Assembly (NCBI RefSeq): GCF_036417355.1
Contig: NZ_CP143889.1
Coordinates: forward strand, 2,604,001 to 2,668,000
Length of the DNA: 64,000 nucleotides
Direction: 5' to 3'
Source: Akkermansia sp. RCC_12PD
Lineage (GTDB): Bacteria; Verrucomicrobiota; Verrucomicrobiia; Verrucomicrobiales; Akkermansiaceae
In this document: positions 7,550 to 17,913 of the stretch, piece after piece
How positions within the stretch are numbered: the first letter of the stretch is position 1
How the letters are laid out: each line of letters begins with the position of its first letter
Made by a program: the position numbers and the translations under genes
Notes under the pieces: generated by a model
What the model was told of the DNA's origin: nothing
The model's database searches: none
Seen by the model: the letters and a program-made list of their open reading frames with translations, nothing else

Positions 7550-8497
7550 TCAGATGGGGATTTCCCGGTCGCTGCCGCCGTACATGAAAGTATGCAACAG
7601 GCGTGTGACCTGGTTCTGATCGGAATGAAGCTGGGCAGCAGGGCGCAGGGCGGCGTAGGTCAGGCTGTCATGCCCGGTAAATTCCCTCATGTGGAATCCC
7701 TGGAAATTGGTCATGGGCTCGCTGTCGTGGTACAGCTTGCCCCTTCTGAGCAATTCGTCAAAGACGTGTTCCGCCTCACGCGTGCGGGTCAGCGCCTTTT
7801 CCGGATGCGGCACGCGGATGACCAGGGCCCCTCCATCCCCACGGAAATTGATGCCTTCCCCGGCCATGACATCTGCGGAAGGCTGGCTGGTGGTGCTGCC
7901 GAGCAGCAGCACCCCGTTGTCCACCAAATGGATACGGTCGCAATGGGCCTGTTCCTTCACGTGAAGCACGCCTCCGTAAATGTGGGTGGAAACGCTGCCC
8001 GTCAGTTTTTTGATGCGCGCCAGACCGTGCCTGATGACGAACTCCGAGCCGTCGCAGGGCAGGTCTATGGCTGAGGCAAAAAGCCAGCCGTCCGTCATCG
8101 TGATACGTCCTTCATGCTCCCTGGCTCCCTGGATGCGCCCCTGTCCCATCAGAACGCGGCCTCCGTTGATCTCCAGGCTTCCGTTGGCCTTGTCCCCCAG
8201 AAACATGGTCATGTGGTCCGGCAGGTTGCCGATGAGCGTCAGGGCGCCTCCGTTGCGGACGACCAGGTGGGCGGTTCCGTGGCCGTGGTCCGGCTGATTG
8301 GGGCCGCCCACGTAAACGGGGGCGTTGATGATGTAAAGGCTGCCTCCGGCATCAATGGTCAGGGAGTCCTGAACATCCGTCTGCCCCTGGACCACGTCAT
8401 TGGTGATGGTGACCGGGCACATGTAGGAAACGCGGTTCATGGATGACGCTGAAAGCGGCATCATTCCCGTTAGGATGAATGGGTTGATATTGCTCAT
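7550..8497 (-). CDS. Hypothetical beta-helix-like protein
   Basis: Protein of 315 residues with short glycine-punctuated repeats such as LTIDAGGSLYI, LVVRNGGALTLIG, GDKANGSLEINGGRV and EGRITMTDGWL. These are typical of right-handed parallel beta-helix passengers of adhesins and autotransporters. No signal peptide, lipobox or autotransporter barrel is visible from the ATG at 8497, and the frame upstream of it is only the shadow of hypA. The last 90 residues are not repetitive. It lies 142 bases downstream of hypA on the same strand. I do not recognise the family. A cytoplasmic role, or export by an unrecognised signal, are both open. Confidence 0.65.
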   Translation of the reverse strand: MSNINPFILTGMMPLSASSMNRVSYMCPVTITNDVVQGQTDVQDSLTIDAGGSLYIINAPVYVGGPNQPDHGHGTAHLVVRNGGALTLIGNLPDHMTMFLGDKANGSLEINGGRVLMGQGRIQGAREHEGRITMTDGWLFASAIDLPCDGSEFVIRHGLARIKKLTGSVSTHIYGGVLHVKEQAHCDRIHLVDNGVLLLGSTTSQPSADVMAGEGINFRGDGGALVIRVPHPEKALTRTREAEHVFDELLRRGKLYHDSEPMTNFQGFHMREFTGHDSLTYAALRPAAQLHSDQNQVTRLLHTFMYGGSDREIPI

Positions 8498-8639
8498 GAT
8501 ATTGGTTCTACAGCTGGGTTGGCATTTGCGGCGTAATGAAAGTACGCCAATATGTTTGACCGTCCGGAAGTGAAAAATGTTCGGGTAAATTTTCTGATTT
8601 TTTCCGGGTGGGAGCGGAACGGAGAAAGGAGGATTGGGG

Positions 8640-8981
8640 TCATTCCCATTCCACGCGGGTAAGCTCCAGCTCCCGTCCCCGGAGGATGGCCAGGGCGGGT
8701 TCCCCGCAGCCGGGGCAGATGTAGCCGTGGTCCGTGAAGAGGAAATCCTCTTGGCAGTCGTCGCAGCGGCAGAGGGCCTCCACCCAGGTGATCTCCAGGG
8801 CGGCATTCCCTGCCGCGTAGGCGTCTCTCAGGGCCAGAAAGGCGGATTGCAGGGCGTCCGGCACCACGCCGCTCAGGCTGCCGATGGTCATGTGCACGCG
8901 CACCAGCCGGGAGCCGCCGTTTTCTTCCATGAGGCGGCGCGCCATGTCCAGCGCCCCTTCCATGATGCCTACTTCATGCAT
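8640..8981 (-). CDS. hypA: Hydrogenase nickel incorporation protein HypA
   Basis: HypA of 113 residues, the standard length. It delivers nickel, together with HypB, to the large subunit of [NiFe] hydrogenases. The N-terminal MHEVGIM carries the nickel ligands H2 and E3. The zinc site is C73-x2-C76 (CRCDDCQ) and C89-x2-C92 (CPGC). It is the last gene of the hydrogenase operon. Its ATG overlaps the end of the protease gene by eight bases, which suggests translational coupling. HypB, C, D, E and F are not in this window and must be encoded elsewhere if the enzyme is made. Confidence 0.93.
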   Translation of the reverse strand: MHEVGIMEGALDMARRLMEENGGSRLVRVHMTIGSLSGVVPDALQSAFLALRDAYAAGNAALEITWVEALCRCDDCQEDFLFTDHGYICPGCGEPALAILRGRELELTRVEWE

Positions 8982-9543
8982 GGGCGTTTTCCCGGTCCGC
9001 GCAGTCCTCTACCGCCCGGGCAATGAGATTTTCAATCAGTTCCAGGGCCTGCGGCATGGCCGCCCGTACCTCTGCGGACATGGGCTGGCAGAAATCCGTG
9101 TGCGCGGCCTCCACCCCCACCAGCGTGATGGCGCGCGGCAGGGTGCCGCAGAGCTGGGCGGCGCCCAGCACCTCCTTCATGCCTATCTGGTGCGGGGAAA
9201 TGACGCAGGAGAAATGGCGGGGGAGCTCCTCCTTGCTGCGCGTGACGAGCGTGCCCGGTGCGGCTCCCGTCTTCACGGCGTCCACCAGGATGACCGTGTC
9301 CGCGTCTTCCAGCAGGGGCAGCAGCGTCATGCCCAGTGTGCCTCCCTCCTCCACCTGCACCAGCGGGCCGTAATCCCGCTCCTGGAGCCGTTTCGCCAGT
9401 TCCACGCCCACTCCGTCGTCCCCCATGAGCGGGTTGCCCACGCACAGCACGAGCACGGGGTAGGCATTTCCCTTTACGGGGCAGCCACGCCGATCCTCCG
9501 TATATTCTTCAGCTTTCATGAATATTGATCCGGTATTATTCAT
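8974..9543 (-). CDS. hyaD: Hydrogenase maturation endopeptidase (HyaD/HupD type)
   Basis: Protease of 189 residues that cuts the C-terminal tail of the hydrogenase large subunit after nickel insertion. The conserved nickel-sensing start is VLCVGNPLMGDDGVGVELA. The second acidic ligand is in TVILVDAVKTG and the histidine is in SPHQIGMKEVL. These are the three ligand positions known in HybD/HyaD. The start MNNTGSIFMKAEEY adds some 25 residues before the conserved region, and an internal M9 is possible. The gene overlaps the cytochrome gene by eight bases and hypA by eight bases, so the maturation genes are locked to the structural genes they serve. Confidence 0.9.
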   Translation of the reverse strand: MNNTGSIFMKAEEYTEDRRGCPVKGNAYPVLVLCVGNPLMGDDGVGVELAKRLQERDYGPLVQVEEGGTLGMTLLPLLEDADTVILVDAVKTGAAPGTLVTRSKEELPRHFSCVISPHQIGMKEVLGAAQLCGTLPRAITLVGVEAAHTDFCQPMSAEVRAAMPQALELIENLIARAVEDCADRENAHA

Positions 9544-10708
9544 CCCTGAACTTCACTCCCTTGCGTAGCCAGCGGCCGCCGCTGAACATGGAGGAGATGG
9601 TGCCGTCCCGGTCCACGTTTCCGGAAAGAATGGAAAGATACACGTGGATCATGGCAAAGATGATGAAGCACCACATGCCGATCAGGTGGATCAGGCGCAC
9701 GTACGGGACCCCGATCAGGTCGTTCAGCGGCATGAACCAGTGGTAAAACCAGTGGCGCGGCTCGTACAGCGCGTACAGTGCCAGCCCGGTAACGATCATG
9801 GTGGTGAACAGGACGTATACGCCCGTATACGTCCACTGCTGGAGGGGGTTGTGGCCTATGTAGCGCGGACCGTCGTAGCTCCGCGCAAAAACGTAGTCCA
9901 CCGCCGTGGTGTACAGGTCCTTCCACTGTTGTCTGGAGACGGGGAACAGCGCCCGGAAGCTCTGGTACTTGTTGGAGGCCATGAAAAAGCAGGAAAAGCG
10001 GAGCATCATCACCACCACCAGCGTCCAGCCCAGGGCGTAATGGACGAAGCGGAGCGTGCCGAACTGGAAGGCTCCGTGCAGGTCCCCCATTTTCAGGAAC
10101 CAGCCTTCCGCGATGCAGATGCCCGTAACGGCCAGGCCGATGATGCAGAACACCCATGTCCAGTGCAGCACCCGCAGCGGCCAGTCCCAGACGTGGAAGT
10201 AGCGGAAATTGGCCTTGGCCTTGGAAAGATGGCGCACGTCCCGCATGGCGTGCATGGGCACCACGCCCAGCAGGCGCCACGGGGCACCGGAGCGATGCAC
10301 GGCAATCCCCACGGGCTGGAAGCCGGACGGATCATAGGCTTCAAAAGCCTTGTTCATGCGTTCCTTTTCCAGATTGCTGACCTCGCACAGTTTTTCCAGG
10401 GCGTTCAGGTTGCCGCGGGCCACCATGAAGGGGACGGCGTCTTCCTTGTCCGCGGCTTTCAGGATGGCGGTGCTGTAATGGCGTTCTCCGGACGGGGCCT
10501 CCCAGGAATCCGCCTGCTGGGCGTAATTCAGCTGGATGCCGCGTTCCCGTGCCGCGTGCAGCAGGGCCAGGTCCCCCGGGTCCGTGCTCCCGTTGGGGGA
10601 GGCGCACACGGCCAGCGCCAGGATTTCTTCCGGAGAGTAAACGGTACTGGCCGGAATGGCATCCTCCACCACCAAGGTGAGGTCTTCATTGATGAGGGTC
10701 GTTTTCAC
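9536..10708 (-). CDS. hyaC: [NiFe] hydrogenase cytochrome b subunit with P-type-ATPase-N-domain-like extension
   Basis: Protein of 390 residues; HyaC/HupC proteins are normally about 220-250. Residues 170-390 are the dihaem cytochrome b that passes electrons from the small subunit to quinone. They start YFHVWDWPLRVLHW, have four membrane spans (about 180-200, 221-243, 294-316, 339-361), and carry haem-ligand candidates H172, H182, H223, H341 and H355. Residues 20-165 precede it without a break and look like the nucleotide-binding domain of a P-type ATPase. STDPGDLALL, VARGNLNALEKLCE (compare the KGA-PE-LC block) and GFQPVGIAVHRSG with WRLLGVVPM occur in the expected order and spacing. The phosphorylation motif DKTGT and the GDG hinge are absent. 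The extension shares the frame, and the ATG at 10708 overlaps hyaB by four bases. Confidence 0.88.
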   Translation of the reverse strand: MKTTLINEDLTLVVEDAIPASTVYSPEEILALAVCASPNGSTDPGDLALLHAARERGIQLNYAQQADSWEAPSGERHYSTAILKAADKEDAVPFMVARGNLNALEKLCEVSNLEKERMNKAFEAYDPSGFQPVGIAVHRSGAPWRLLGVVPMHAMRDVRHLSKAKANFRYFHVWDWPLRVLHWTWVFCIIGLAVTGICIAEGWFLKMGDLHGAFQFGTLRFVHYALGWTLVVVMMLRFSCFFMASNKYQSFRALFPVSRQQWKDLYTTAVDYVFARSYDGPRYIGHNPLQQWTYTGVYVLFTTMIVTGLALYALYEPRHWFYHWFMPLNDLIGVPYVRLIHLIGMWCFIIFAMIHVYLSILSGNVDRDGTISSMFSGGRWLRKGVKFRDE

Positions 10709-12462
10709 GGGTCCTGTCTGGTCAGAATGGCCTCTCCCTCTTCGTCAAACAGATGGACGGCGCAGGATTGGCACGGATCATAGCTGTGAATGGTGCGCAG
10801 GGCCTCCACGGGGCGGGACGGGTCCACCAGCGGATGCGTTCCGGTATGGGCCAGGGAATACTCGTACGGCCCCATCTGGCCTTCCGCGTCCCGTCCGGAA
10901 CTGTTCCAGGTGCTGGGAACCACGGCCTGGTAATTCACCGTCTGGCCGTTTTCAATCCTTACCCAGTGGCTGAGGCTGCCGCGGGGGGCTTCCACCCAGC
11001 CCACCCCCTTGCAGGAGGAGGGCCATGTCTCGGGCTCCCATTTCTCCGGGTTGAAGGTGGCGGTTTCCCCGTTCTTGATGCGGTTTGTCATTTCCTGGAG
11101 CTGATTCACCATCATATCCACATTGATCATGGCGTCCAGGGCGCGGCCGTACACGCGGCCCAGCGTGGAATTCATGAAAGCGTTGTCGCGCGGCAATCCC
11201 AGCTTGTCGCAGGCGGCGTCCACCCGTTCCACGATGGCGGGAACGCCCTGGGCGTAGCCGATCATCATGCGGGCGTTCGGTCCCACGGCCATGGCGTGGC
11301 CGTCGTAGCGCGGAGCTTTCACCCAAGTGTACTGGGGGCGGTCGGAAAGCCATTTATAGGGCGGCCTGGGACCGTTGTAATCCGCGTCCGTCTGGCCGTC
11401 GTACGGGGCCAGTCCCGCATCCCGCCCTTCCGTGTACTTGTACCACGCGCTGGTGACGAATTCCTTGATCTTGTCCTGGTCAAAGGGAAGGACGTTCTTG
11501 TAATCCCCGTTCAGCAGGACGCCCGGCTTGATCATGCCTTTTCCGGCAGGGGCACCGGTATTGATTTCAGACGGGTCTCCGGTGCAGAACAGGTTGGGGT
11601 TGGACGCGCCGATGTGGGCGTAATCCTTGTAAAAACCGGCAATGGCCACGATGTCCGGGTAGTATACCTTGTGGATGAAATCGTGGCAGGTATCTACGAG
11701 CTGTTTCAGGTAGCTCAGAGAAAACTGGTTGATGGCCTGGTCGTTGTTCATGTTGATGGCGCAGGCCATGCCGCCCACCAGGAAATTGGGGTGCGGGTTC
11801 TTGCCGCCCAGGATGGTGTGGATCTTGATCATGTCCCGCTGCCAGACGAGGGCCTGGAGGTAATGCGCCACGCCCAGCAGGTTCACCGCCGGCGGCAGCT
11901 TGTAGGCGGGGTGGCCCCAGTACCCGTTCGTAAAAATGGAATACTGTCCGTGGGCGATGGAATCCTTCAGTTTCTTCTGCACTCCGGCAAAGTACGTAGC
12001 GGAGGAAAGGGGCCAGTCGGAAAGGGACTTGGCAATGGCGGCGGTTTCATTCGGGTTCGCCTTCAGGGCGGAAACCACGTCCACCCAGTCCATGGCCTGA
12101 AGCTGGTAGAAATGAATTACGTGGTCCTGAATGCCCAGAGCGCCGCTGACCAGGTCCCGCATAAGTTTGGCCTGGATGGGCACGGGGTATTGCAGGGCGT
12201 CTTCCACCGCGGCCAGGGCGGCAATGGCGTGGGTGCCCGTACAGACGCCGCAGATGCGTTCCACAAAGGCCCACACGTCCCGCGGATCGCGCTTGCAGGC
12301 GATCACTTCAATGCCGCGGTACTGCGTGGTGGACGTCCAGGCGTTTTTGATCACGCCGTCCCCGGCCTCCATCTCCACCCGCAGGTGGCCTTCAATGCGT
12401 GTCACGGGGTCGATGACCACGCGGCTGGATTCCGGAACGGCCGCTGATGTATAATTGCTCAT
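10705..12462 (-). CDS. hyaB: [NiFe] hydrogenase large subunit
   Basis: Catalytic subunit of 585 residues holding the Ni-Fe(CN)2CO centre that splits H2. The N-terminal ligand motif is ERICGVCTGTHA with C71 and C74, and the C-terminal one is DPCQSCAVH with C564 and C567. The HyaD-type protease would cut after H570, releasing a 15-residue tail. VVIDPVTRIEGHLRVE at the start is characteristic of membrane-bound uptake enzymes (group 1). It is co-transcribed after the small subunit (23-base gap) and overlaps hyaC by four bases (ATGA). Complete and undamaged. Confidence 0.96.
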   Translation of the reverse strand: MSNYTSAAVPESSRVVIDPVTRIEGHLRVEMEAGDGVIKNAWTSTTQYRGIEVIACKRDPRDVWAFVERICGVCTGTHAIAALAAVEDALQYPVPIQAKLMRDLVSGALGIQDHVIHFYQLQAMDWVDVVSALKANPNETAAIAKSLSDWPLSSATYFAGVQKKLKDSIAHGQYSIFTNGYWGHPAYKLPPAVNLLGVAHYLQALVWQRDMIKIHTILGGKNPHPNFLVGGMACAINMNNDQAINQFSLSYLKQLVDTCHDFIHKVYYPDIVAIAGFYKDYAHIGASNPNLFCTGDPSEINTGAPAGKGMIKPGVLLNGDYKNVLPFDQDKIKEFVTSAWYKYTEGRDAGLAPYDGQTDADYNGPRPPYKWLSDRPQYTWVKAPRYDGHAMAVGPNARMMIGYAQGVPAIVERVDAACDKLGLPRDNAFMNSTLGRVYGRALDAMINVDMMVNQLQEMTNRIKNGETATFNPEKWEPETWPSSCKGVGWVEAPRGSLSHWVRIENGQTVNYQAVVPSTWNSSGRDAEGQMGPYEYSLAHTGTHPLVDPSRPVEALRTIHSYDPCQSCAVHLFDEEGEAILTRQDP

Positions 12463-12485: not shown

Positions 12486-13706
12486 TTATTCTTCAGTTTC
12501 CTTGTCGGGGGAGCCGGGCTCGTCCCCAAAGGCGGGCAGGGAGACGTTCGCCTCCTCCTTCATGTGCTGCTGCCGGTAATGAATGGCGGACCCCACCGCA
12601 TGGGCGGCGATGGCCGTGCCCGCCGCGGCCACGCCCACGGCGCCGATCACGTTGGCGGAGGCTTCCACGCCGAAGCCGTTCACGTTGGGCAGCGTTTTGT
12701 AGAAGGGAGTCATGCGGTCAAAGAAATACAGCTCCGTGCATCCGATGCACGGGTGGCCGGACTGGATGGGGAAGCTAACGCCGCCGTTCCATTTGACGAT
12801 GGGGCAGGGGGAGAAGGTGTCCGGCCCCTTGCAGCCCACCTTATACAGGCAGAAGCATTCCCGCGCGTTCTCATCGTCAAACACGTTGACGAACTGGCCG
12901 GCGTCAAAGTGAGCCCGGCGCGGGCAGTTGTTGTGGATGCGCGTGCCGTACGCCATCAGGGGGCGCGTTTCCAGGTCGCACTCCGGTGCGCGGTCAAAGG
13001 TGAGGATGTACATGATCACGGCCGTGATCACGTCCCCGATGGGAGGGCAGCCCGGTACGTTGATGACCGTGCGGTCTGTCAGGATGTCCCGGATGCCTAC
13101 AGCCCCGGTAGGGTTGGGTCGGGCGGCCTGGATGGAGCCGAAGTAGGCGCAGGATCCCACGGCCAGGATGTAGGAGGCGTTTTCCGCGCAATGGCGCAGC
13201 ATGTTCTCCACCGTATCTCCGGCCACGGTGCAGTACACCCCGCCGTCGTTGACCGGGACGGACCCGTTGATGACAAGGATGTGGGGTTCCTTGATCGCCT
13301 CTTCCAGGGCCTGGTTGGCGGCCTCCCCGGAGGGGGCCATGAGCAGTTCCACATACGGCATGGACACGGCGGAAAGCACCATGTCCCCGATCTCCTCATT
13401 ATAGCTGCGGATGGTGCTTTCCAGGCACCCGGTGCATTCCTGAAGCTGGAGCCAGATGACCACGGGCCGTTTGAGATTCGCCATCTTGTCCGCAATTTCC
13501 TGGGCGTTGGAGACACCCCCCGTCACGGTGGCGACGCCCATCAGGGCAATCATTTTCAGGCACCATTTGTTGAATTCGCGTCGGCTGACGCCGCGGCGCT
13601 CCATATGTTCCCCCAGGGTTTCCCCGGGGCGCCATGTGGTTAAAATCTCATGGTTCAGGGAGGCCTGCTCCGCCTCCTTCAGGGAAGATAGCTCAGTGCG
13701 CTTCAT
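12486..13706 (-). CDS. hyaA: [NiFe] hydrogenase small subunit, Tat-exported
   Basis: Iron-sulfur subunit of 406 residues that conducts electrons from the active site to the cytochrome. It begins with a long 40-residue leader before the twin-arginine motif SRREFNKW (R42-R43), followed by a hydrophobic stretch, so the folded heterodimer goes out by the Tat route. QECTGCLESTIRS (C91, C94) supplies the proximal cluster, with further cysteine motifs at ILAVGSCAYFG, NVPGCPPIGD and CKGPDTFSPCP. A C-terminal hydrophobic helix (ANVIGAVGVAAAGTAIAAHA) anchors it next to HyaC. It is the first gene of the operon. The upstream gap of 87 bases should contain the promoter, but I see no clear boxes. Confidence 0.96.
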   Translation of the reverse strand: MKRTELSSLKEAEQASLNHEILTTWRPGETLGEHMERRGVSRREFNKWCLKMIALMGVATVTGGVSNAQEIADKMANLKRPVVIWLQLQECTGCLESTIRSYNEEIGDMVLSAVSMPYVELLMAPSGEAANQALEEAIKEPHILVINGSVPVNDGGVYCTVAGDTVENMLRHCAENASYILAVGSCAYFGSIQAARPNPTGAVGIRDILTDRTVINVPGCPPIGDVITAVIMYILTFDRAPECDLETRPLMAYGTRIHNNCPRRAHFDAGQFVNVFDDENARECFCLYKVGCKGPDTFSPCPIVKWNGGVSFPIQSGHPCIGCTELYFFDRMTPFYKTLPNVNGFGVEASANVIGAVGVAAAGTAIAAHAVGSAIHYRQQHMKEEANVSLPAFGDEPGSPDKETEE

Positions 13707-13793: not shown

Positions 13794-15275
13794 TTACCAG
13801 GACCACACGTTCTGAATCTGGAAAACCACGGCAGTCTGCCCCCGGCGCCCGTTGACGGGATTTTTCACGAGCTGAATGTCAGGCTGAAGCGTCATGGTAG
13901 GCGTTACCTGCATCACGTATGTCAGTTCAATGCCATATTCATTCTTGTTCACGTACGGGCCGTTCTTCCTGGCTCCCTGCTGCCAGAGGAATCCCAGGCC
14001 CAGGTAGCCGTCATTGGAGGCACCCTTCCCGTAAAAGGGGGAAAGGAGCACCAGCCCTGTGGTGGCCGCACATCGCACACCGGTCAACGCAGCTGCGTTG
14101 TCGCTGGCCCAGCCGCCGCGGAAGAACCAGCCCAGATGACTGTGGCGGCCGAGCTGCTGCTGGAAGTTGACGCCTACGCCGCCTCCGTTTTCACTGTCGC
14201 TGGTGGCGAAGAAGGGCTGGAGGCGGTACACGCCCGGTCCCCACCCGCAGAAATCCTCCGCCACGTAGCCGAATTCAAGCACGTTCGTCCAGTTGTCAGA
14301 GTTCAGGTTCTTGAACGGATTGTGGTTGGCGGTCATGTTGTTGGCGGCTGTGGCGCCCATCACATAAAAGGAGGAGGTGGGTTGCCACGCAAAATGGAAC
14401 CCCAGGGAGTTGTCCGTGAGCGGAAGCATGGGATTGTTGCCGAAAACGCTGTTGGTCAGGTTATTGTTGTGGGAATTGGCATACGCATTGTGGTCCATGT
14501 AATTGGTAGTGTCCAGTTGGCCCGCCATCAGCAGGAGCTTGCCGCCCGCGCCCACCCACGCCAGGCTCAGGTTGCTGAGGTGCGGGTCCGGCCCCTGGAA
14601 GGAGCTGGTGGGGTTCTGGAGGGAACCCAGGGTGGTGGCGGGGCCCTTGTTCCCTTCATTGAAGTCAAAGCCGTTGCCAAAGTCGAACTCGGAGGCCAGG
14701 TACAGGCCGCTGCCCGTGGAGTTGTTGCGGAAAATGGTGATATTGGTCAGAAGAGAACCGTTATAAGAGGGGAAATCCGTTTTCCCGTTCAGGCCGCCGC
14801 CCGTCAGGCCCGTGTAGTTGAAGCCGAACTGGGCGGAATAGGTGATGCCGTATTTGGACAGGGCCGTCTTGAGCTTTTGTGCTCCGGTGGAAATCATGTC
14901 CTCGCGGATCCAGGCATTCGGTTCCACGCAGGTATTGCCGAAGACGTAGGAACTGTCCAGATACGGCATCATCTTGAGGGGCTTGGAGGCAAAAAACTCA
15001 ATGCCGGGCTTGGATGGGCGGGAAAGGTGCTGAAGAAGAATGCTCGGCTTGGTAGGCACGCCGGGCGTGCGTTTGGTAATCTGTTCCTCCGGCCTCTGTC
15101 CCTTGATCAGGCTGGGGCTTATTTCTCTGCCTTCCAGCGGCTTGACCCGCAGGCCGCGTTCCGTGTTCAGATAAACGGCCTCCGGGGCCGGCTGGGGAAC
15201 CTGCTGGGCCAGGACGGGATCACAGGAAACAAGGGCGGCGGCGGCAAAAAAAGGAGGAAGCAATACATGTTTCAT
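13794..15275 (-). CDS. OprB-family carbohydrate porin (putative)
   Basis: Outer-membrane beta-barrel of 493 residues. The start MKHVLLPPFFAAAALVSC followed by DPVLAQQ is a signal peptide; the ACS-like segment could also be read as a weak lipobox. After a variable 110-residue N-terminus, alternating aromatic/glycine strands begin at ITYSAQFGFNYTGLTGGG. They include SGLYLASEFDFGNGFDF, LSLAWVGAGGKLLLMAGQLD and YLGLGFLWQQGARKNGPY. The chain ends VVFQIQNVWSW, an aromatic terminus as used by the BAM machinery. The pattern fits OprB-type porins, which pass sugars across the outer membrane. The frame is open further upstream, but only the ATG at 15275 gives the signal peptide. Substrate unknown. Confidence 0.75.
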   Translation of the reverse strand: MKHVLLPPFFAAAALVSCDPVLAQQVPQPAPEAVYLNTERGLRVKPLEGREISPSLIKGQRPEEQITKRTPGVPTKPSILLQHLSRPSKPGIEFFASKPLKMMPYLDSSYVFGNTCVEPNAWIREDMISTGAQKLKTALSKYGITYSAQFGFNYTGLTGGGLNGKTDFPSYNGSLLTNITIFRNNSTGSGLYLASEFDFGNGFDFNEGNKGPATTLGSLQNPTSSFQGPDPHLSNLSLAWVGAGGKLLLMAGQLDTTNYMDHNAYANSHNNNLTNSVFGNNPMLPLTDNSLGFHFAWQPTSSFYVMGATAANNMTANHNPFKNLNSDNWTNVLEFGYVAEDFCGWGPGVYRLQPFFATSDSENGGGVGVNFQQQLGRHSHLGWFFRGGWASDNAAALTGVRCAATTGLVLLSPFYGKGASNDGYLGLGFLWQQGARKNGPYVNKNEYGIELTYVMQVTPTMTLQPDIQLVKNPVNGRRGQTAVVFQIQNVWSW

Positions 15276-15478
15276 ATGACAGTCAGACAAGGCCGTACCC
15301 GGAATTGTCATAACGCGGGGGGCATGCTGACACGAATACCTGACAGGCCTTCGCAAAAAAAGATGAAAGCCCGGGCGCCTTCCGTAAAAGCCGGTAAATC
15401 CCGGAGCGGTTGCTTCTGTGGCACATCGCCGGGGCCGCAGGACCGGGCCGTCTGTGCGGAAATCCCGCATTTCCGGGA

Positions 15479-17065
15479 TCAGTCCTTTCCGTACAGCGGG
15501 GGAACGGGAGCCTTTGCCGGAAGCGTGTACAATTTTTCAATATCGTCCAGGTACCTGGCAATGGGCGTGTTGGCCGGAGCCTCTTGTTCCCGGATCATCT
15601 TCATGGTCGCCGCATAGGAATCAAACGTTTTTCCGGAACCGGTCCGGGTGTTGATTTCATACCAGTCCATATAATCCCGTACGCGCCGGGCCGTTTTCAT
15701 GGAAAGTTCCCGTATTTCCCGGAGCTGGCTGATTTTCAGTGCGGCTTTCCTGCGGTCCAGTTTGTCCGTCTGCATCAGGGCGACGAGTTTGGCGTATTCC
15801 ACGATAATGGGGCGGTAGGAGGGAAAGGAACGCCTGCTGAGGTTGAACAGGCTGCCGGATATGTTGGAAAGCTGCCTCTTCAGGTCGGGCAGGGAGGCGG
15901 CCTCTTCCAGATTGTCCACGGGGAAAGTGGTGGTGGTACGCGTGTCCGGATCATACTTGACCAGCGTAAGGGCTTCCTGCAGGTGCCTTTCCGTCTCCAT
16001 GATCGTGAGGGTTTCCGTCACGGGGGGGGTAGCCATGCGGGAAAGCTGGAGCGTCCACCATTTATGCAGGGAGGAAGGCGTCAGATTGAGCTGGGGAAAG
16101 TGGCGCTTGATGAGGTTTTTGGGATCATCCCCCCCCAGAATCGCCTGGTCCAGCAGATGTTTCATCCCTTCCGGTCCGTTTTTCTGGTTTAGCAGACAAA
16201 GCATCAGGGCACCGCAGGAAGTCTGGTAGGCGGCGTAGGAAGTAGCGTCCAGCTCCTTCTCCGGTTCCCGGCTTTTCAGGATATCTTCCGGGCTCATGAT
16301 GCCATCCTGCTGGAACAGGGTGGAATACAGCGCGCGGTCCGCTTCATTGGTGTGCCACAGAACTGCCTGTTCCAGTCCGGTGATAAGCCAGGGGGGAAGG
16401 CTGACCTGTTCCGGAAGCCCCTCCGGATCGACATTCCGCAGCATCATTTCATAAAGCAGGGTGGAAATGACCGCGTGCCGGAGCCTGTCCTGGTTGATGC
16501 CGCGACCCAGGTGGATGTAAATATTGTACGTGATGGCGTCCCCCAGAATCGTGGTCTGCATGCGGATGGGATTGGGCGGGACCGGGGTGCCCGGCTCCCC
16601 CATCAGGCGGATGATGATCCGGTTTTTCCATTCGTCCGGCTGCTTGAGGATTTTCAGGAGCGTCGTACGCATGGAATCTGCGCGGGAGGCGATTGCCCCG
16701 GCCAGCAGGGCGTCCTGTCCGATCACGTGGAACTGCTTGGAAGAGGAAATGCTGGTGAAGGGCTGCCGCCGTACCGGGGCTTCCGTGGCGAGAGCCGCAG
16801 CGGGCGGGGCTGCCGCTTCTCCGGACGGAGCCGCAGGAGCGGAAACGGGTTCGGCAACGGGCGCAACGTTGGACCGGCCCTGCAGGACGGGGCGGTCGGA
16901 GGAATCGTCCAGATGGTCCGTGTCCGGAACGGGCAAGGGAACTGTTTCTTCATGCGCGGCGGCAGGCGGCGCGCTTTCTCCCCGTTCCGCCTCCTGTCCG
17001 CAAACGCAGGGAACAAGGAGCAGGAGGGGCAGAAGAAAGCTGGTGCATGTTCCTCCGGAAATCAT
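15479..17065 (-). CDS. Exported protein of unknown function, possible degenerate peptidase-MA-like fold
   Basis: Protein of 528 residues starting with a signal peptide (MISGGTCTSFLLPLLLLVPC, then VCG). It continues with a 90-residue Pro/Ala/Glu-rich linker and a helical C-terminal part. Residues about 180-300 have the layout of gluzincin peptidase-MA proteins: LRHAVISTLLYEMMLRN where HExxH would sit, then SLPPWLITGLEQAVLW where such enzymes have LPxWLxEG. The zinc-binding histidines are not present, so I expect no protease activity. The rest is unrecognised. The ATG at 17065 leaves 14 bases from the dehydrogenase gene, so the two are probably one transcript. Confidence 0.65.
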   Translation of the reverse strand: MISGGTCTSFLLPLLLLVPCVCGQEAERGESAPPAAAHEETVPLPVPDTDHLDDSSDRPVLQGRSNVAPVAEPVSAPAAPSGEAAAPPAAALATEAPVRRQPFTSISSSKQFHVIGQDALLAGAIASRADSMRTTLLKILKQPDEWKNRIIIRLMGEPGTPVPPNPIRMQTTILGDAITYNIYIHLGRGINQDRLRHAVISTLLYEMMLRNVDPEGLPEQVSLPPWLITGLEQAVLWHTNEADRALYSTLFQQDGIMSPEDILKSREPEKELDATSYAAYQTSCGALMLCLLNQKNGPEGMKHLLDQAILGGDDPKNLIKRHFPQLNLTPSSLHKWWTLQLSRMATPPVTETLTIMETERHLQEALTLVKYDPDTRTTTTFPVDNLEEAASLPDLKRQLSNISGSLFNLSRRSFPSYRPIIVEYAKLVALMQTDKLDRRKAALKISQLREIRELSMKTARRVRDYMDWYEINTRTGSGKTFDSYAATMKMIREQEAPANTPIARYLDDIEKLYTLPAKAPVPPLYGKD

Positions 17066-17079
17066 CGGTCGGGATCGGG

Positions 17080-17913
17080 TTAATCGAATTGTTCCGCCAG
17101 GCAGCCGAAATCCTCTTCCGCATGACCTTCGCGGCACAGGCGGTCCATGATGGAAGAGACGAGCGCCGCTACGGGAGGCTGGATGCCCTTTTCCGCCGCC
17201 AGTTCCTGGGCGTAAACGCTGTCTTTCCGCATATTGTCCAGGGAAAAGTGGGTGGAAAAATCGCGTTCCGCCATCAGGGGAAGCTTGAACGCCGCCAGCG
17301 GGGAGGCGATGACGTTCCGGGAAATGGCCTGCCCCAGCAGTTGCGGGGAAATGCCGTAGGCCTGGGTGATGGCCAGGGCTTCGCTGAGGCTCTGGACCAT
17401 CGTGGCGGAAATCATGTTGGTGATCAGCTTCACGACGGTGCCGGCGCCCACGCCGCCCGCATGGAGAATATCCTTCGAGCTATGTTCCAGAACGGGACGC
17501 ATGCGGTCCAGCGTGGAGGAATCCGTCCCCGCGTAATAAACCAGTTCCCCCTTTTCCGCGGGCATGCGGGAACCGGTGAACGGGCAATCCACATAAGTGC
17601 AACCGATTCCGGAGCACATCAGGGAAAGCTTGTCCACCGTGGCAAGGTCGATCGTGGAATGGTTCAGGATCACGTGTTCCGGGGTGAGGGCTCCCCTCAT
17701 CTGTTCAAACACCTCCAGGCAGGCGTTTCTGTCCTTAAGGTAGATCTGGATAATTCTGGAAGCGCGGACGGCGTCCGCCGGGCTTGCGGCCACGCGGGGG
17801 TAACCTTCACGGGGCGTGCGGTTCCAGACGGTCACGTCGTCACCCAGGGAGATCATGTGCCGGGCAATGCGCGAGCCGATGATTCCCAAGCCGAGAATGG
17901 AAACTTGATGCAT
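17080..17913 (-). CDS. 3-hydroxyisobutyrate dehydrogenase-family oxidoreductase
   Basis: NAD(P)-dependent beta-hydroxyacid dehydrogenase of 277 residues. The N-terminal Rossmann motif is VSILGLGIIGSRIARHM with NRTP after strand two. The substrate loop VDCPFTGSRMPAEKGEL (about 108-124) corresponds to the family's D-x-PVSGG region. The catalytic lysine is K162 with N166 in GAGTVVKLITNMIS. Glyoxylate/succinic-semialdehyde reductases and 3-hydroxyisobutyrate dehydrogenases share these features, so the substrate is not fixed. Complete. It lies 27 bases after the coiled-coil/TPR gene and 14 bases before the 528-residue exported protein, so these three likely form an operon. Confidence 0.88.
   Translation of the reverse strand: MHQVSILGLGIIGSRIARHMISLGDDVTVWNRTPREGYPRVAASPADAVRASRIIQIYLKDRNACLEVFEQMRGALTPEHVILNHSTIDLATVDKLSLMCSGIGCTYVDCPFTGSRMPAEKGELVYYAGTDSSTLDRMRPVLEHSSKDILHAGGVGAGTVVKLITNMISATMVQSLSEALAITQAYGISPQLLGQAISRNVIASPLAAFKLPLMAERDFSTHFSLDNMRKDSVYAQELAAEKGIQPPVAALVSSIMDRLCREGHAEEDFGCLAEQFD

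Follow-up and report, generated by a model that had tools for sequence, protein, structure and literature searches.

A P-type ATPase N-domain-like extension on the hydrogenase cytochrome b of Akkermansia

The HyaC-type hydrogenase cytochrome b of Akkermansia sp. RCC_12PD carries at its N-terminal end an extension whose resemblance to the nucleotide-binding domain (N-domain) of P-type ATPases is far above chance, and the original prediction of this extension, made on a window of 64,000 nucleotides, is confirmed. That the extension has the fold of such a domain, is related to the P3A proton pumps and is held under purifying selection can be taken as nearly certain. Our best reading, to which we would give a probability of about one half, is that an N-domain captured from a pump may lie in the cytosol and regulate hydrogen oxidation in response to adenine nucleotides.

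Reading frame and relationship of the extension to P3A pumps

The extended gene (positions 9536 to 10708, minus strand) starts with GTG and codes for a protein of 390 residues; it is accompanied on the same strand by the genes for the large (hyaB, 10705 to 12462) and small (hyaA, 12486 to 13706) subunits of a [NiFe]-hydrogenase, for a HyaD-type hydrogenase maturation protease (8974 to 9543) and for the nickel metallochaperone HypA (8640 to 8981); HypD is also encoded in the same genome. Its second part is a Ni-hydrogenase cytochrome b561 domain (residues 173-377, 9578 to 10192, minus strand) with four hydrophobic segments (residues 186-204, 225-243, 296-314 and 342-360), which matches PF01292 with an E of 4.9e-26 and 92 bits, against a cut-off of 30.1. 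The score with TIGR02125 is 119.2 bits against a curated cut-off of 121.5, a value passed in three of 12 Akkermansia genomes. Residues H182, H223, H341 and H355, the putative haem ligands of HyaC, are invariant in the 13 aligned fusions; the alignment comprises 13 of the 14 fusions found, the fourteenth (G318) having been read for its first part alone.

As had been predicted, the protein is much longer than the usual HyaC of about 235 residues (the hyaC gene of E. coli measures 708 bases), and its frame is continuous: none of the 390 codons is an internal stop, and the start of the gene and the end of hyaB have four bases in common. The start codon stands at the same place in all 13 aligned fusions, as GTG in 11 and as ATG in the two most divergent ones (L004, 59% identical, and L005, 54% identical), and in all 13 an AGGA lies a few bases upstream. 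The long start is thus supported by the relatives, which share both the position of the start codon and the AGGA.

Some features of the neighbourhood were also recorded. The first cluster motif of HyaA (12486 to 13706) reads CTGC and not CTCC, so that this subunit presumably is without the extra cysteines of oxygen-tolerant hydrogenases. The hyaA gene is adjoined by an OprB-type porin gene (13794 to 15470) and then by a frame of 552 aa (15479 to 17137), both of which match DNA beside hyaA in locus L021. Downstream of hypA, an ORF of 418 aa (7550 to 8806) has no Pfam or NCBIfam match at the limits used, while a relative of it occupies the same place in all five loci that reach that far (L021-L025). 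In four of these five the similarity sets in somewhere from residue 58 to residue 92, so that the true start of this ORF is probably further in.

The N-domain-like segment covers residues 8-165 (10214 to 10687, minus strand), and the sequence blocks quoted in the original prediction lie where it had placed them, with codon 20 beginning at position 10651 and codon 165 ending at 10214. Comparison of the extension alone (residues 1-166) with NCBIfam rendered a single match, TIGR01647, the family of plasma-membrane proton-efflux P-type ATPases (E 5.8e-8), in which residues 11-152 are aligned with positions 301-439 of the 755 of the model; the same residues align with positions 345-475 of the AHA2 chain, after its DKTG at 318. 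TIGR01647 was matched by all eight extension members scanned, with a best E of 7.9e-11, whereas three other families appeared with one or two members each at best E values of 0.014-0.15, and no other P-type ATPase model in NCBIfam matched any of the eight at E up to 1. The whole-protein cut-off of TIGR01647, 615.5 bits, is not reached by the extension, as expected for one domain. A Pfam scan gave no match for the extension of the window and chance-level matches for other members (best E 0.078), so that Pfam alone would miss the relationship to P3A pumps.

A profile built from eight extensions matched three P3A ATPases of other Verrucomicrobiota with E values of 6e-13 to 6e-10, these three pumps (L018-L020) having been fetched with the extension as the query, and the other 21 of the 24 DKTGT open frames among the collected loci gave no match at E up to 10. 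When the extension profile was compared by hhalign, in one comparison, with 14 verrucomicrobial P3A N-domains, the two were matched at 99.1% with an E of 2e-18 over 138 columns. A profile search of the PDB gave AHA2 as the best match (E 0.0056), with Pma1 at E 0.037; the ankyrin protein 2aja, second in this search (E 0.013), matched over some 40 residues and was taken as chance, and MotX and a ferredoxin, found in a single-sequence search of the PDB, were at chance level (E 0.55 and above).

The predicted structure of the extension also matched the P-type fold. An AlphaFold2 model based on seven sequences had a mean pLDDT of 84.1 and a pTM of 0.81, two of the five models being at pLDDT 83-84 and three at 69-71. 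Foldseek placed Pma1 first among PDB structures (E 1.9e-6); 16 of its 970 matches had an E up to 0.001, and the best 50 of the 970 were P-type ATPases. With VIA-align, Pma1 was again the best (Z 16.9, rmsd 3.4, 152 residues aligned), and AHA2 (Z 15.2) and the isolated N-domain of HMA8 (Z 15.0, rmsd 2.1, 117 residues) were also aligned; the range of AHA2 involved, 331 to 522, corresponds to the N-domain plus the edge of its flanks. The model of full-length HyaC (pLDDT 56, pTM 0.41) was of too low a quality to show where the domain sits relative to the membrane part. The family match, the profile comparison and the match to the Pma1 fold bear out the original identification of the extension as a P-type ATPase N-domain.

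Distribution and selection of the fusion

Extended HyaC proteins are present in relatives: the fusion was found in 14 of 76 Akkermansia genomes, and in 13 of the 55 with a completeness of 90% or more and a contamination of 5% or less. All 14 fusions are without an internal stop, and the named loci that carry one include A. muciniphila and A. glycaniphila. This recurrence, together with the fact that six of the 14 assemblies consist of a single contig, indicates that the extension is not an assembly error. The presence of HyaC is patchy among the 76 genomes of the genus: all 14 carriers have 2.7 Mb or more, none of the genomes listed at 2.6 Mb or less has HyaC, and five of 2.7-2.8 Mb are also without it.

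In the phylum, TIGR02125 was matched in 33 of 288 genomes. Twelve of these are Akkermansia, and all of them have the extension, in frames of 398-402 aa. An ordinary HyaC was found in eight other verrucomicrobial genomes (L048-L054 and L067), none with the extension; four of them (L048, L051, L053 and L067) were read, and the other four were judged by the length of the frame, 248-262 aa. The long frames of L053 (427 codons) and L067 (386 codons) were considered as extended HyaC proteins and discarded, since they are open frames upstream of an ordinary HyaC and hold no N-domain sequence. A further 13 genomes with weak TIGR02125 matches were taken as containing other cytochromes, two of them (L068 and L077) having been read.

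When 387 genomes of the phylum were searched with the extension profile, 29 of them gave matches with an E of 0.01 or less. Those below 1e-8 were 12 Akkermansia fusions and eight frames of 831-896 aa, the size of a P3A pump; the remaining matches had E values between 2.2e-4 and 0.008, and two of these covered a short part of a small frame, one of 168 aa that contains a stop and one of 142 aa. No P3A pump at the TIGR01647 cut-off was found in 59 relatives, 37 of them of the genus, and this cut-off was reached in 14 of the 288 genomes of the phylum, none of them Akkermansia. One genus of the same class has P3A-like ATPases (L126-L128) that score 596-614 bits, slightly under the cut-off of 615.5, and in them the PFDP motif is changed and the lysine of KGA/KGS is kept. 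One Akkermansia genome contains a P-type ATPase-like match (L110, G015:C1:518887-520113) with one internal TAA stop.

Coverage outside the Verrucomicrobiota, where group 1f hydrogenases have other carriers such as Geobacter, consisted of plasmid records and two narrow peptide patterns. The extension alone matched four of 72,556 plasmid records, three annotated as proton-efflux P-type ATPases and one unannotated. Six matches in E. coli plasmids that seem to span residues 1-379 were discarded: in the one examined (H1), hyaC has 708 bases and the rest of the match overlies hyaB. The peptide patterns rendered 27 loci, namely six Akkermansia fusions and 21 proteobacterial cytochromes, and no N-domain was present in the eight of these 21 that were read.

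The extension is under purifying selection, less tight than that on the cytochrome part. Nei-Gojobori dN/dS values were obtained for ten pairs, a selection from the 28 that eight sequences can form. The seven closer pairs had a ratio of 0.13-0.28 for the extension and of 0.017-0.075 for the cytochrome part, and the dN of the extension was 1.7 to 15 times that of the cytochrome. The three deep pairs had a dS near saturation, and their ratios of 0.26, 0.53 and 0.29 are not reliable.

Nucleotide pocket and possible roles

According to PMC5387105, adenine is contacted in AHA2 by Asp372 and Asp375 and ribose by Ser457, and the Asp of DKTG is residue 329, which is position 318 of the PDB chain, so that the two numberings differ by 11. 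With this offset and the PDB profile alignment, the two aspartates of the DPGD motif of the extension (residues 43-46, 10571 to 10582, minus strand), D43 and D46, correspond to Asp372 and Asp375. Both are invariant in the 13 aligned fusions and are kept in the fourteenth too (14/14).

Other parts of the pocket have changed. The FxPFDPxxKR motif of P3A pumps is mostly lost, and at its place stands WxxPxxxR (W69 to R76, 10481 to 10504, minus strand), in which W69, P72 and R76 are invariant in the 13 fusions. Of the pump motif, P72 and R76 alone are kept in all eight rows compared with the pumps, and W69 sits one column off the second F of FxPFDP. At the place of residue-K-G of KGAP stands ARG (residues 97-99, 10412 to 10420, minus strand), so that the KGA lysine, present in 14 of 14 P3A N-domains, is replaced by R98 in 13 of 13 fusions. 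The pump residues that are changed are, in fusion numbering, F67, P69, F70, D71 and A100; the GYR arginine, R131, is Q or E in six of the eight rows and R in two, and the hinge DPPR is missing. On the side of what is kept, A36, S37, A48, P72, R76, G99, G129, A136, W144 and G148, each conserved in 12 or more of 14 P3A pumps, are also found in all eight rows. The columns that are invariant in the eight extensions and identical to a P3A-conserved residue, defined as conserved in at least 12 of 14 P3A pumps, number 12, against 0.9 expected; a shuffle of columns reached at most 6 in 20000 rounds, and since it involved no realignment the observed value of 12 is flattered. Invariant columns make up 18 of the 44 P3A-conserved columns and 19 of the 105 others (Fisher p 0.004). 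From its sequence, then, the cleft combines conservative and non-conservative changes and appears neither intact nor plainly dead, and binding of a nucleotide by it is plausible. Among isolated N-domains, PMC5089723 gives affinities for ATP of 0.7-25 mM, and binding that was not measurable for those of HMA6 and HMA8.

Neither the DKTG phosphorylation site nor the GDG of the P-domain is present in any of the 13 fusions, so that no pump activity is to be expected, in agreement with the original prediction; a TGD string in L005 lies within the N-domain, before ARG, and is not the P-domain motif. Because the P-domain is missing, no phosphate transfer by the extension is expected either.

The preferred reading can be laid out as follows. 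The fusion would have arisen once, in the ancestor of the hydrogenase-bearing Akkermansia lineages. The four membrane segments put the N- and C-terminus of HyaC on one side, from which the domain is probably cytosolic, and in other HyaC proteins both ends are cytosolic. Charge is distributed as 6 K/R against 3 D/E in loop 244-295 and 6 against 4 in the C-terminus; the N-terminal part, taken together, has a slight excess of acidic residues (19 K/R against 23 D/E), so that it is from the even number of membrane segments that the N-domain is assigned to the cytosol. The first membrane helix starts some 20 residues past the end of the N-domain. The captured domain would bind an adenine nucleotide, and this binding might pass a change of shape to the first helix, or displace the quinone/haem end of HyaC, and in this way hydrogen oxidation would respond to cytosolic adenine nucleotides. 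Cellular ATP levels are near the N-domain affinities of 0.7-25 mM, which would suit a sensor of the bulk nucleotide. A lone N-domain would distinguish ATP from ADP poorly, since, as PMC5387105 describes, only Mg and residues of the P-domain hold the gamma-phosphate in AHA2. That the extension binds a nucleotide and regulates by this means, along the lines of the ATP-binding sensor suggested in the original prediction, is possible, at somewhat less than even chances, and the fullest version, in which a proton-pump N-domain captured as a detached sensor would let cytosolic adenine nucleotides gate a respiratory hydrogenase, we consider less likely than not.

It can also be the case that a degenerate N-domain is kept for its fold and not for its ligand, and that it serves in the cytosol for docking or stabilisation, keeping a partner protein or the hydrogenase complex in place. 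This is a close rival of the regulator and nearly as likely: the KGA lysine and the PFDP motif are changed, as is the GYR arginine in most rows, the extension evolves faster than the cytochrome part, isolated N-domains bind ATP poorly even when intact (PMC5089723), and the ORF at 7550-8806, with its relative at the same place in five of five loci (L021-L025), could be a candidate partner. On the other hand, the adenine-contact aspartates are invariant together with P72, R76, G99 and G129, and W69 and R98, which differ from the pumps, are yet fixed in 13 of 13 fusions, which looks more like a selected site than like free decay.

Two further explanations have far less to recommend them. Internal starts near M152 or M155 could in addition yield ordinary HyaC of the standard length, about 236 residues, so that the extension would be present on part of the subunits; a Met is found at column 155 in 12 of 13 rows and at column 152 in 12 of 13, but neither is universal, since L004 has the one at column 152 alone and L005 the one at column 155 alone, and no AGGA-like site was seen by eye at the right distance before either, whereas one precedes the long start in 13 of 13. 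We regard such a dual start as improbable. The faster evolution of the extension, and nothing else that was found, would fit an artefact of assembly or annotation or a functionless, decaying remnant of a pump, an explanation made extremely improbable by the 14 stop-free fusions among 76 Akkermansia genomes and by the dN/dS of 0.13-0.28 in the seven closer pairs.

Comparison with known systems

To our knowledge, P-type ATPase N-domains are known only inside pumps, and among the papers searched none was found to describe N-domain fusions or a hydrogenase cytochrome that bears a domain of a P-type ATPase. The N-domain and HyaC are both known families, and it is their combination that is new as far as searched. 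In the fullest version of the preferred reading, the nucleotide domain of a P-type ATPase would have found a use away from pumps, in the control of an electron-transport complex. An N-domain on the electron-exit subunit of a hydrogenase would connect energy state with hydrogen use, in a concrete and testable way, in Akkermansia, a human gut commensal. The fused domain is selected across the genus, including strains named A. muciniphila, and even without nucleotide binding it is a clear case of a pump domain reused as a separate module.

The hydrogenase genes of Akkermansia have been assigned to group 1f in PMC12578642, a label that is the paper's own, and in its available part hydrogen metabolism is said to remain to be investigated and an extension of the cytochrome is not mentioned. 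With the P3A H+-ATPases (AHA2, Pma1; TIGR01647) the extension shares the predicted fold, the order of elements, the pair of adenine-contact aspartates and, towards the end of the N-domain, a W and a G that are conserved; it differs from them in the absence of DKTG, GDG and the hinge DPPR, in the arginine that replaces the KGA lysine, in the loss of most of PFDP and in being fused to a cytochrome. With the HyaC/HupC proteins of group 1 [NiFe]-hydrogenases (TIGR02125, PF01292), Akkermansia HyaC shares the gene order hyaA-hyaB-hyaC-hyaD-hypA, the four hydrophobic segments and a PF01292 match above the cut-off, whereas it departs from them in its length, 390 against about 235 residues, and in the extra N-domain that it carries.
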